Notes under the pieces: generated by a model
What the model was told of the DNA's origin: nothing
The model's input: the letters and a program-made list of their open reading frames with translations, nothing else
The model's database searches: none
Position numbers and translations under genes: made by a program
Shown: positions 12,671 through 42,452 of the stretch, piece after piece
Numbering within the stretch: the stretch's first letter is position 1
How the letters are laid out: every line of letters starts with the position of its first letter
Source: Bacillota bacterium
GTDB lineage: Bacteria > Bacillota > Clostridia > Monoglobales > Firm-18
Direction of reading: 5' to 3'
DNA: 64,000 nucleotides
Assembly: GCA_022706765.1 (NCBI GenBank)
Contig: JAKJBX010000007.1
Coordinates: forward strand, 1-64,000

Positions 12671-13429
12671 TTACAGCACGGTCCGCTTTCCGCCCCTGCC
12701 GAGTTGCCTGATGATGTCCTTAGGGAAACGGTCGTCGCTGATCAGCGTGTCGATGTCGCCGGGTTTTGCGAAAGTAAAGGGCAGGTTTTTGCCCAGCTTG
12801 GAGCTGTCCATCAGGACGATGACCTTGCTTGCCTTTTCGATGACACGCTTTTTGATTTCACATTCGTTAAAGTCGCCACCGGTAAAGCCGTTCTTCATGG
12901 AAAAGCCCGACGCCGCCATAAATGCGATGTCGATGTTGATATTGTCCAGAAAATTGAGCGCCGTGATCCCCGAAAACGACAGGTTTTCACGGCTGAGGCT
13001 GCCGCCGATGGCGTTGACGGTCGCATTCGGGTTTTTGATACATTCGAGCGCGATGTTCGGCGAGCTGGTGGTGATGAACAGCTTTTGGCTGTCCAAAAAC
13101 TGCGCCAGGCACATCACCGTCGTGCCTGAGTCCAAAAAGATGGAGCGGTCCTCCTCGATGCAGCCGAGCGCCTTTTTTGCGATGGCGGTTTTCTCCGCCA
13201 TGTTTTCAAGCGTGCGGGTGGCATACAGCTCTTCCTTGATCCTCGACAGGTGCGAAATGCTCTTTGCGCCGCCTTTTGTGCGGACGGCGACGCCCATTTC
13301 TTCCAGCTTTTGAAGGTCGCGCCTCAGCGTCATTGACGACACGCCGGGCAGCAGCGCTTCCAGCTCGGTCAGCTTGACCTCGCCCTTTTCCTGTATGTAT
13401 TGTTTGATTTGCGCAATACGCTCCTGCAT
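12671..13429 (-). CDS. DeoR-family transcriptional regulator
   Basis: 252 aa. Residues about 1-57 form a DeoR winged helix-turn-helix (MQERIAQIKQYIQEKGEVKL, SSMTLRRDLQKLEEMGV). The rest is a DeoR C-terminal sugar-phosphate-type sensor (IFLDSGTTVMCLAQFL, ITTSSPNIALE, NAIGGSLSRENLSFSG, MDSSKLGKNL). It is the first gene of the minus-strand operon, 42 bp before E2, and an inverted repeat lies just downstream of its own promoter, so autoregulation and control of the dehydrogenase genes is likely. A DeoR with a 2-oxoacid dehydrogenase is unusual; the effector is unknown. Confidence 0.9.
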   Translation of the reverse strand: MQERIAQIKQYIQEKGEVKLTELEALLPGVSSMTLRRDLQKLEEMGVAVRTKGGAKSISHLSRIKEELYATRTLENMAEKTAIAKKALGCIEEDRSIFLDSGTTVMCLAQFLDSQKLFITTSSPNIALECIKNPNATVNAIGGSLSRENLSFSGITALNFLDNINIDIAFMAASGFSMKNGFTGGDFNECEIKKRVIEKASKVIVLMDSSKLGKNLPFTFAKPGDIDTLISDDRFPKDIIRQLGRGGKRTVL

Positions 13430-13444
13430 TTTTTCACACCCCTG

Positions 13445-13482
13445 ATGTTAAATTATAACACAATCATTATAATTATTAACAT
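13445..13482 (-). promoter_or_regulatory. putative operator of the deoR-E2-E3-E1 operon
   Basis: Inverted repeat with arms ATGTTAA..ATTATAA and TTATAATTATTAACAT (14 of 16 with a 2-nt gap) around an 8-nt centre. It begins 5 bp downstream of the -10 box and ends before the SD, the position of a repressor site. Confidence 0.6.
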
Positions 13483-13486
13483 TTCT

Positions 13487-13515
13487 ATCATATACCAACC
13501 GGCCGCATCTGTCAA
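13487..13515 (-). promoter_or_regulatory. promoter of the deoR operon
   Basis: TTGACA (13515-13510), 17-bp spacer, TATGAT (13492-13487) on the minus strand. Confidence 0.85.
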
Positions 13516-13551
13516 GCCTTTGTTAGGGGAAATAATATTTCCAAAAACCTA

Positions 13552-13580
13552 TTGCATAATTTTTCTAAGTATGATAGAAT
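13552..13580 (+). promoter_or_regulatory. possible plus-strand promoter into the RNA region
   Basis: TTGCAT (13552-13557), 17-bp spacer, TAGAAT (13575-13580). TTGCAT-17-TATAAT is also used before rpsJ and modA in this window. A transcript from here would run antisense to the minus-strand RNA and end at the terminator at 13775-13812. Confidence 0.45.
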
Positions 13581-13599
13581 GCTTCTAACGGAAGCATGG

Positions 13600-13696
13600 A
13601 CAAACAAAAAAGCGGCAGGTCAACGTGTTAGCGCACATTGAGCCCTGCATACAGGTGAAACCACCACCCATACGCAACCGGATAACCAGCACCGCT
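13600..13696 (-). ncRNA. candidate structured small RNA with own promoter and terminator
   Basis: The transcript would start at about 13696 and end in the T-run at 13611-13605. It folds into a three-way junction. A closing stem pairs GCGGTG..GGT with ACC.TGCCGC. Hairpin 1 is an 11-bp stem, GCGTATGGGTG with CACCTGTATGC, including three G-U pairs. Hairpin 2 is CAATGTG with CACGTTG, with one U-G pair. The G-U pairs would be A-C mismatches on the other strand, so the minus strand is the RNA strand. The start predicted from the -10 box falls at the first base of the closing stem. I do not recognise the family; the SRP, 6S and common riboswitch cores are absent. Confidence 0.65.
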
Positions 13697-13701
13697 ATCT
13701 T

Positions 13702-13730
13702 AGTATAGCACATTCTTCCTCCGTTTTCAA
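13702..13730 (-). promoter_or_regulatory. promoter of the candidate small RNA
   Basis: TTGAAA (13730-13725), 17-bp spacer, TATACT (13707-13702) on the minus strand; predicted start 13696-13695. Confidence 0.75.
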
Positions 13731-13774
13731 GGGGGGGATGGCTGGCGTTTCGGGAATTCTGACAGGACTTAACA

Positions 13775-13812
13775 GCGTGTAGGGTTTGCTTTTGGCAGCC
13801 TGCACGCTTTTT
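13775..13812 (+). terminator. plus-strand terminator in the RNA region
   Basis: GCGTGTAGG pairs with CCTGCACGC (one U-G pair, valid only on the plus strand) and is followed by TTTTT. No gene precedes it on this strand, which suggests a non-coding transcript from about 13590. Confidence 0.6.
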
Positions 13813-13834
13813 ATATTTTGGAAGTGTTTCCGGT

Positions 13835-13957
13835 AAACCGGGGCACGGCGTCCGGCGGCAAACGGGCGCCTGTTCTCGGGATTATCGGAAATCGGCGGTG
13901 TATCACCGGACGAGTAAGCTGCGGGAATGGCTTTTGTACGCCTGCGTCGGTGCCCCA
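13835..13957 (+). ncRNA. possible structured RNA upstream of veg
   Basis: GGGGCAC (about 13840) pairs with GTGCCCC (about 13950), enclosing further stems: GGCGTCCG/CGGGCGCC (with a U-G pair that favours the plus strand), CGGTG/CACCG and CTCG/CGAG. It is GC-rich inside an AT-rich gap. I could not match it to a known riboswitch, and no clear promoter or U-run defines its ends. Confidence 0.35.
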
Positions 13958-13990: not shown

Positions 13991-14019
13991 TTGCCAAAAC
14001 CATAAAAACTTGCTATAAT
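13991..14019 (+). promoter_or_regulatory. veg promoter 1
   Basis: TTGCCA (13991-13996), 17-bp spacer, TATAAT (14014-14019). Confidence 0.8.
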
Positions 14020-14038
14020 GTAAATTTTTCTTTACATT
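14017..14038. promoter_or_regulatory. inverted repeat between the veg promoters
   Basis: AATGTAAA and TTTACATT separated by 6 bp. It overlaps the -10 of promoter 1 and the -35 of promoter 2, so a bound protein would affect both. Confidence 0.4.
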
Positions 14039-14059
14039 TCTTGAAAACTGTGGTATAAT
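14031..14059 (+). promoter_or_regulatory. veg promoter 2
   Basis: TTTACA (14031-14036), 17-bp spacer, TATAAT (14054-14059). The predicted start, about 14066, leaves a short leader with the SD GAGGTG. Confidence 0.8.
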
Positions 14060-14099
14060 AAATCCAGTATAGTAAAGAATGAAGAGGTGTTATAAGAAG

Positions 14100-14351
14100 A
14101 TGGGCGAGAGGGACGAACTGCTTAAAATCCGGAATGTGCTGGAAAACAGCATCGGGCAAAAGGTTCGGCTGACAGCTAAGAAGGGCAGAAAGAAATCAGT
14201 GGTCAGGCAGGGTGTGATTGAGGAAACCTTCCCCAGCATATTCATCGTCAAGCTCGATAACACCATCCAGCAGTTGTCGTCGTCGTCACGGCGCGTATCA
14301 TACAGCTACACCGACGTTCTCACCAAGGCGATCGAGGTCGTACGGTGCTGA
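14100..14351 (+). CDS. veg: Veg protein
   Basis: 83 aa from the ATG at 14100; the in-frame ATG at 14079 lies too close to the second transcription start and lacks an SD, while GAGGTG stands 10 nt before 14100. The sequence has the Veg (DUF1021) pattern: IRNVLENSIGQKVRLTAKKGRKKSVVRQG, then EETFPSIFIVKLD and RRVSYSYTDVLTKAIEV. Veg folds as a small Sm/KOW-like beta barrel; in Bacillus subtilis it is highly expressed and stimulates biofilm formation. Two strong tandem promoters agree with high expression. Confidence 0.88.
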   Translation: MGERDELLKIRNVLENSIGQKVRLTAKKGRKKSVVRQGVIEETFPSIFIVKLDNTIQQLSSSSRRVSYSYTDVLTKAIEVVRC

Positions 14352-14522: not shown

Positions 14523-14700
14523 GTTGGTTATTACAGCGTAATAACCAACAACAATTAATTCATTCCTTAGCAAAGGTTTCCGGCGATGCGCTTATTACTT
14601 TCCCCACGACAGGCAGCCACGGGAAAAGCCCTTGGCAAAGATTTCCGGCAAGGTAAAAGCCCTTGGTAAAGGGTCATGGCGATGCTTACTATCAACATAG
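14522..14700 (+). repeat. repeat-rich spacer before infC
   Basis: It holds a perfect hairpin (TTGGTTATTAC/GTAATAACCAA) and one copy of the dispersed motif ATTCATTCCTTAGCAAAGG with CGGCGATG. Related pieces (AAAAGCCCTTGGCAAAG, AAGCCCTTGGTAAAGG) follow in tandem. The same motif recurs at 15990, 16101, 40831 and 59521. No gene is seen. Confidence 0.55.
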
Positions 14701-15992: not shown

Positions 15993-16130
15993 AAGATAAT
16001 TCATTCCTTGGCAAAGGGTCACGGCGATGAGCTTGTTACTATTCCCTTAGCAGAAAGTCATGGGAAAAGCCTTCGCAAAGAAATGCGGTGAAATGAAAAT
16101 CATTCATTCCTTGGCAATGGGTTGTGGTGG
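15972..16130 (+). repeat. tandem copies of the dispersed ATTCATTCCTTGGCAAAGG repeat
   Basis: Two units of GCAAAGAAATGCGGTGAAATG followed by A-rich DNA and ATTCATTCCTTGGCAA occur here, separated by GATGAGCTTGTTACTATTCCC. They fill most of the gap between rplT and ktrB. Confidence 0.6.
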
Positions 16131-40830: not shown

Positions 40831-40856
40831 ATTCATTCCTTGGCAAAGGGTTTCGG
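40831..40856 (+). repeat. copy of the dispersed ATTCATTCCTTGGCAAAGG repeat
   Basis: ATTCATTCCTTGGCAAAGGG followed by TTTCGG, the same core as at 14558, 15990, 16101 and 59521, again between genes and next to a hairpin. Confidence 0.6.
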
Positions 40857-42212: not shown

Positions 42213-42452
42213 CTACCGGTGTTTTGAAAAAACCTCGAAAGCAAACCGTACCCCGTGGCAAAAGCCTTTTTCAAAATTACCAAAGGCCGTATCTTCAATG
42301 ATTAAATCTTTCTCGTCGATAATTCGGAGCAGCAGTTTTTTATCCTGTTTGGATAAAGTTTGCGACAGCTGCATACGGTTGTATTGCAGCGTTTTGGAAT
42401 CTTTTCTGACAACCGAATTTTCATTGGTAATTTTGTTCAATATTTTATCCAT
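42213..42452 (-). CDS. small hypothetical protein, DUF6809-like
   Basis: 79 aa, SD AAGGAG. Helical: KQDKKLLLRIIDEKDLIIED then FEKGFCHGVRFAFEVFSKHR. The last part resembles small Clostridia proteins (DUF6809 type) ending in a GFxxG(V/L)(R/K) motif; this is a tentative match. It diverges from the XRE regulator at 42594, with an inverted repeat over its -10 box, so it is probably that regulator's target. AT-rich islet. Confidence 0.55.
   Translation of the reverse strand: MDKILNKITNENSVVRKDSKTLQYNRMQLSQTLSKQDKKLLLRIIDEKDLIIEDTAFGNFEKGFCHGVRFAFEVFSKHR

Follow-up and report, generated by a model that had tools for sequence, protein, structure and literature searches.

A predicted antisense RNA in a Bacillota genome belongs to a dispersed module that resembles a transcription attenuator

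The window that we analyzed is a stretch of 64,000 nucleotides from a Bacillota bacterium (contig JAKJBX010000007.1, forward strand). On its minus strand, a promoter of the form TTGAAA-17-TATACT (13730–13702) has 10 of 12 consensus matches and a TG ahead of the -10 box, as the earlier note had seen in calling it near-consensus. The predicted product is an antisense RNA of about 93 nt (13604–13696, minus strand) with a closing stem, three hairpins, and a U-run at its 3' end (13611–13606), which the note had also described. A promoter on the plus strand, TTGCAT-17-TAGAAT (13552–13580), faces it and is predicted to start a leader near 13587. Opposite the antisense RNA, the leader contains the stretch CCCATACGC (13667–13675, plus strand), a putative pre-emptor or antiterminator that is complementary to the 5' arm of an intrinsic terminator, with one mismatch in this copy. 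The terminator itself, which is the putative attenuator, consists of GCGTGTAGGG..CCTGCACGC plus five T (13775–13812, plus strand).

In related copies, a conserved stretch joins the terminator to the start of a small gene. Here the stretch is present (13820–13898, plus strand), and both the open reading frames and the alignment of copies indicate that no small gene of its own follows it. The next gene downstream is veg (14079–14351, plus strand; PF06257, E = 2.1e-26), which has promoter-like sites of its own at 13991–14059 according to the promoter scan. The window copy retains intact RNA parts, and the antiterminator pairing is predicted when this copy is folded by itself. Because the small gene has been lost, this copy is probably either a relic or an element that acts on veg by read-through, at most as a modest input.

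The predicted fold of the antisense RNA has a free energy of -42.9 kcal/mol, compared to a mean of -28.8 for shuffled sequences (z = -4.95; none of 200 shuffles equaled it). The plus strand of the region (165 nt) is less distinct from its own shuffles (z = -1.98), so the strand asymmetry that the earlier note reported, with hairpins that need G-U pairs on one strand only, is real. The note had drawn a three-way junction, but the closing stem and three hairpins make this a four-way junction. It had also placed the start of transcription at the first base of the closing stem; that start is predicted rather than mapped.

Covariation supports the predicted antisense fold, and the compensatory changes that the note had proposed to look for were found. 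In an alignment of 35 sequences, 96.8% of the cells pair, and 28 of the 31 pairs have changed on both sides. The covariation score of these sequences was 0.555, while slid partners gave 0.09 or less, and none of 500 shuffles matched it; an earlier set of sequences gave support as well. Since fitting the alignment to the model biases it towards the structure, we also folded each RNA by itself. Single-sequence folding gave exactly three hairpins in 65 of 66 RNAs.

The element is not unique within its genome. A 181-bp region of the window matches 13 other sites (74–82% identity, E ≤ 4e-18), for a total of 14 copies. Each unit is about 180 bp and has two facing promoters, one for the leader and one for the RNA of about 93 nt that is antisense to it. 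When we aligned the 14 copies with their flanks, both strands were organized: a plus-strand promoter of the type TTGCAA-17-TAAAAT, the form found in most copies, faces a minus-strand TTGAAA-17-TATAAT, and both promoters are kept across the 14. Further along the plus strand come the terminator (AGCGTGTAGG...CCTGCAYGC-TTTTTT) and the conserved stretch; most copies then have a short gene preceded by a ribosome site. Across 66 units from this and other genomes, the minus promoter scored 9.6 out of 12 on average (6.6 for shuffled sequences) and the plus promoter scored 9.0 (7.2 shuffled). The minus promoter sits a few nucleotides ahead of the modelled RNA in nearly all of the units.

The short genes behind this genome's copies encode either DUF6809 (PF20648; two above the cut-off and one below) or a family of about 70 amino acids. 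The latter has a CxxC...HxxC pattern and occurs at six loci (L063, L064, L066, L068, L070, and L071); the members that we compared to Pfam, NCBIfam, and PHROGs had no match. A DUF6809 gene at 42231–42434 of the window (minus strand) has no attenuator unit ahead of it, so genes of this family can occur apart from the module.

Two other repeats occur near these units. At L063 and L069, a shared stretch beginning with CCCGAGGTATCCGAACCCGCATAGG interrupts the unit after the attenuator terminator, and the unit resumes about 300 bp further on; another repeat has therefore been inserted between the terminator and the gene. The window contains no stretch of this type. It does contain a second dispersed repeat, TTCCTTGGCAAAGGGTTT, at 14563–14580, 16004–16021, 16107–16124, and 40836–40853 (four matches when as many as 3 mismatches are allowed, against 0.09 expected). 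This repeat is found at many of the loci that we examined in the genome and lies upstream of the modules at L063, L064, L069, L070, and L073.

The two larger hairpin loops of the antisense RNA vary from copy to copy. Among the 14 paralogs, identity is 33% in one loop and 38% in the other, as against 95% elsewhere, and all 14 pairs of loops are distinct. Between orthologs from four species of genus g230, the antisense regions are 95–100% identical, as compared to 83–91% for the 500 bases after the leader. Divergence among paralogs together with conservation among orthologs is what we would expect if every antisense RNA has to fit the leader opposite it; free drift of the loops would not account for the conservation between orthologs. 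In the L138 ortholog, both loops have changed and the stems have not. From these patterns we infer that the loop differences would make each copy respond mainly to its own antisense RNA. YUNR loop motifs were not enriched.

To examine the distribution of the unit, we built a covariance model (R1) from the 14 copies. R1 gave no matches in 50 further genomes from the order, but a search of 391 genomes from the class with R1 detected a single copy in G358 and three copies in G417. A second model (R2) identified at least 31 copies in four genomes of g230, and G417 proved to have at least 10 copies, with predicted antisense RNAs at, for example, 376,897–376,993 (plus strand), 831,328–831,425 (plus strand), and 2,185,090–2,185,186 (minus strand). 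R2 and a third model (R3) found units in G155, G521, G646, G670, G682, G781, G790, and G828, and weakly in G593, where the unit (L200) is decayed at best. We discarded a hit in G336 (L122) as a chance match. Across the phylum, at least 9 of 398 genomes contain units, including the genome that we started from; these represent at least six genera, and G840 can be added to them. Overall, the covariance searches place the unit in at least seven genera of Bacillota beyond this one. A scan of a collection of genome contigs with the window's own, atypical variant gave chance matches only.

Searching sequenced phages and plasmids with blastn gave no copies. One unit lies on a viral contig from IMG/VR, ahead of a gene for a secreted protein (L181:12550–12644; E = 2.9e-11 with R3); this contig may represent a prophage or host DNA that was misassigned. 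Two attenuator units occur in tandem, about 330–360 bp apart, at L140/L156 and at L158, and the first of the two has a variant with a short hairpin 1.

All of the 38 distinct units that we compared (38/38) have an intrinsic terminator on the plus strand, with a hairpin of about -11 to -23 kcal/mol and at least five T, between the antisense region and the gene. It lies 73–136 nt past the antisense region. The 5' arm of the terminator is complementary to the part of the leader that faces hairpin 1 of the antisense RNA, and this complementarity is kept with different sequences: CCATACACA pairs with TGTGTATGG in g230, CCATGCACA with TGTGCATGG at L157, CCTATACGC with GCGTGTAGG in this genome, and CCTACAC with GTGTAGG in G358. 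An initial comparison of pairing energies with shuffled leaders gave a weak signal (14/38 at p ≤ 0.05), because the arm is also similar to the opposite arm of hairpin 1, so we replaced it with a comparison of cognate and swapped pairs. Cognate pairs of antiterminator and arm were stronger than swapped pairs (p = 5e-5 for all 33 and also for the 19 from outside this genome). Inside this genome alone the difference was not significant (p = 0.12), as its copies are too alike.

Folding also links the antisense region to the terminator. The predicted probability of the terminator was 0.49 for free real leaders, 0.90 if the antisense region was shuffled, and 0.96 if it was blocked. At equilibrium, the free leader still favors the terminator in 18 of the 38 units, and for these units the co-transcriptional order of folding may matter.

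At the level of sequence, then, the units have the parts of an antisense attenuator: facing promoters, an untranslated leader, a terminator, and a pre-emptor that the antisense RNA covers. The element is very likely the antisense component of a transcription attenuator that acts in cis, with read-through of the leader set by the antisense RNA, which probably decides whether transcription of the opposite gene stops early. The plus-strand promoter would start the leader, while the facing promoter would produce the antisense RNA opposite the initial part of the leader. If the leader is free, the stretch of the type CACC-ATACACAAC would pair with the 5' arm of the terminator and transcription would run into the gene. 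Binding of the antisense RNA would instead mask this stretch, so that the terminator would form and transcription would stop. The model presumes that both RNAs are made, that they begin to pair from the loops, and that their pairing causes termination. It may also explain why the hairpins need G-U pairs on one strand: these pairs hold the antisense hairpins together but correspond to A-C mismatches in the sense strand, which would leave the sense strand free to act as an antiterminator.

The genes behind units from other genomes are varied. They encode XRE-type HTH proteins, response regulators with GGDEF domains, BspA-type leucine-rich repeat proteins, other secreted proteins, a SymE-like protein (PF08845, E = 1.8e-11), and a small membrane protein that resembles DUF4190 (below the cut-off). 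The cassette is thus not specific to any one function. None of the annotated units precedes a gene for a replication initiator, as the targets are XRE, DUF6809, GGDEF, SymE-like, LRR, or uncharacterized proteins; the target at L191 has just a weak match to RPA, below the cut-off.

Many of these targets are small proteins and a known type I pair has SymE as its toxin, which raises the possibility that the units are type I toxin-antitoxin cassettes, with an antisense RNA that blocks translation of the mRNA for a small toxic protein or destabilizes it. We consider this quite unlikely. Most targets are not known toxins, and GGDEF, XRE, and BspA-type proteins are among them. Also, the antisense RNA does not overlap the ribosome site or the coding region: it lies far upstream, and the conserved terminator, which begins 73–136 nt past the antisense region, comes before the gene. 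We dropped a narrower version, an antitoxin of the RatA/TxpA type against holin-like toxins, as no hydrophobic toxin is encoded opposite the RNA.

The dispersal of 14 copies, with 74–82% identity to the window copy, would also suit a mobile DNA repeat, similar to MITE or REP elements, whose hairpins serve transposition rather than control by RNA. This seems very unlikely, given that the covariation favors a minus-strand RNA held by G-U pairs, that both promoters are retained, and that the antisense region is better conserved between orthologs than the genes that follow it. Least credible, in our judgment, is the stand-alone, trans-acting small RNA of the earlier note, whose position opposite a leader would be incidental. 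An RNA with its own promoter, fold, and terminator, conserved stems, and exposed loops is compatible with that proposal, but the opposing promoter, leader, terminator, and antiterminator are kept alongside it, both in this genome and in other genera. What holds of the note's claim to a new small RNA is the promoter, the conserved fold, the terminator, and the absence from Rfam; the RNA is neither stand-alone nor unique, as it makes up the antisense side of a dispersed module with two promoters.

If the antisense attenuator is the correct reading, a broader one is possible, although we would stop short of calling it probable: a widespread chromosomal cassette that attaches to unrelated genes in unrelated lineages and whose loops change as whole blocks, which would give each copy an insulated antisense channel of its own and make the family a natural set of orthogonal RNA regulators.

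No Rfam family matches the window element, in agreement with the earlier note, which recognized no known RNA core. At the gathering thresholds, the matches within the window were tRNAs and one S10-Clostridia leader, all of them away from the element, and a permissive scan of 13400–13900 gave chance matches only. Families of plasmid antisense RNAs (ctRNA) were absent from the matches at the element even at E ≤ 10, and from 18 other loci at gathering. We found no matching family in the open-licence literature, leaving aside the individual entries of a list of 3161 candidate RNAs compiled from human microbiomes (PMC8040213). A chromosomal antisense attenuator of this design, ahead of varied genes in many Bacillota, seems not to have been described before.

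It resembles several known systems. In pT181, the antisense RNAI (87 nt) acts on the untranslated leader of repC, in which a pre-emptor base-pairs with a terminator's 5' arm, and binding of RNAI frees the terminator (PMC5703833). The family shares the short antisense RNA, the untranslated leader, and the pairing of pre-emptor and terminator arm. However, pT181 is one locus that controls replication of staphylococcal rolling-circle plasmids, with the terminator at the ribosome site, whereas the family is chromosomal, has many paralogs ahead of unrelated genes, and has the terminator ahead of the ribosome site; nor does Rfam's pT181 RNA family match the window element. The RNAIII/repR system of pIP501, an Inc18 plasmid, is similar in that a convergent antisense promoter lies halfway along a long leader, with a terminator upstream of the ribosome site (PMC5703833), but on its plasmid it acts together with CopR in controlling repR, and no rep gene follows the annotated units. 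Anti-Q of pCF10 is also made from a convergent promoter and induces a terminator in the opposing prgQ transcript (PMC6540685); unlike the family, it belongs to the pheromone-linked control of conjugation on one plasmid. RnaG-icsA and RNAbeta-fatDCBA extend the likeness to genes that do not serve replication, in which an antisense RNA causes premature termination (PMC8383071), but these are single loci in Proteobacteria rather than a dispersed family with variable loops. By analogy, the family would work like pT181, pIP501, Anti-Q, RnaG, and RNAbeta, yet it lies outside their RNA families according to Rfam.

The attenuators in these papers are single loci, mostly on plasmids, while here there are up to 14 paralogs per genome. 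A conserved family ahead of regulators, surface proteins, and small uncharacterized proteins would make antisense attenuation a general chromosomal mechanism, and it would offer a natural test of partner specificity in RNA pairs as well as ready orthogonal parts.
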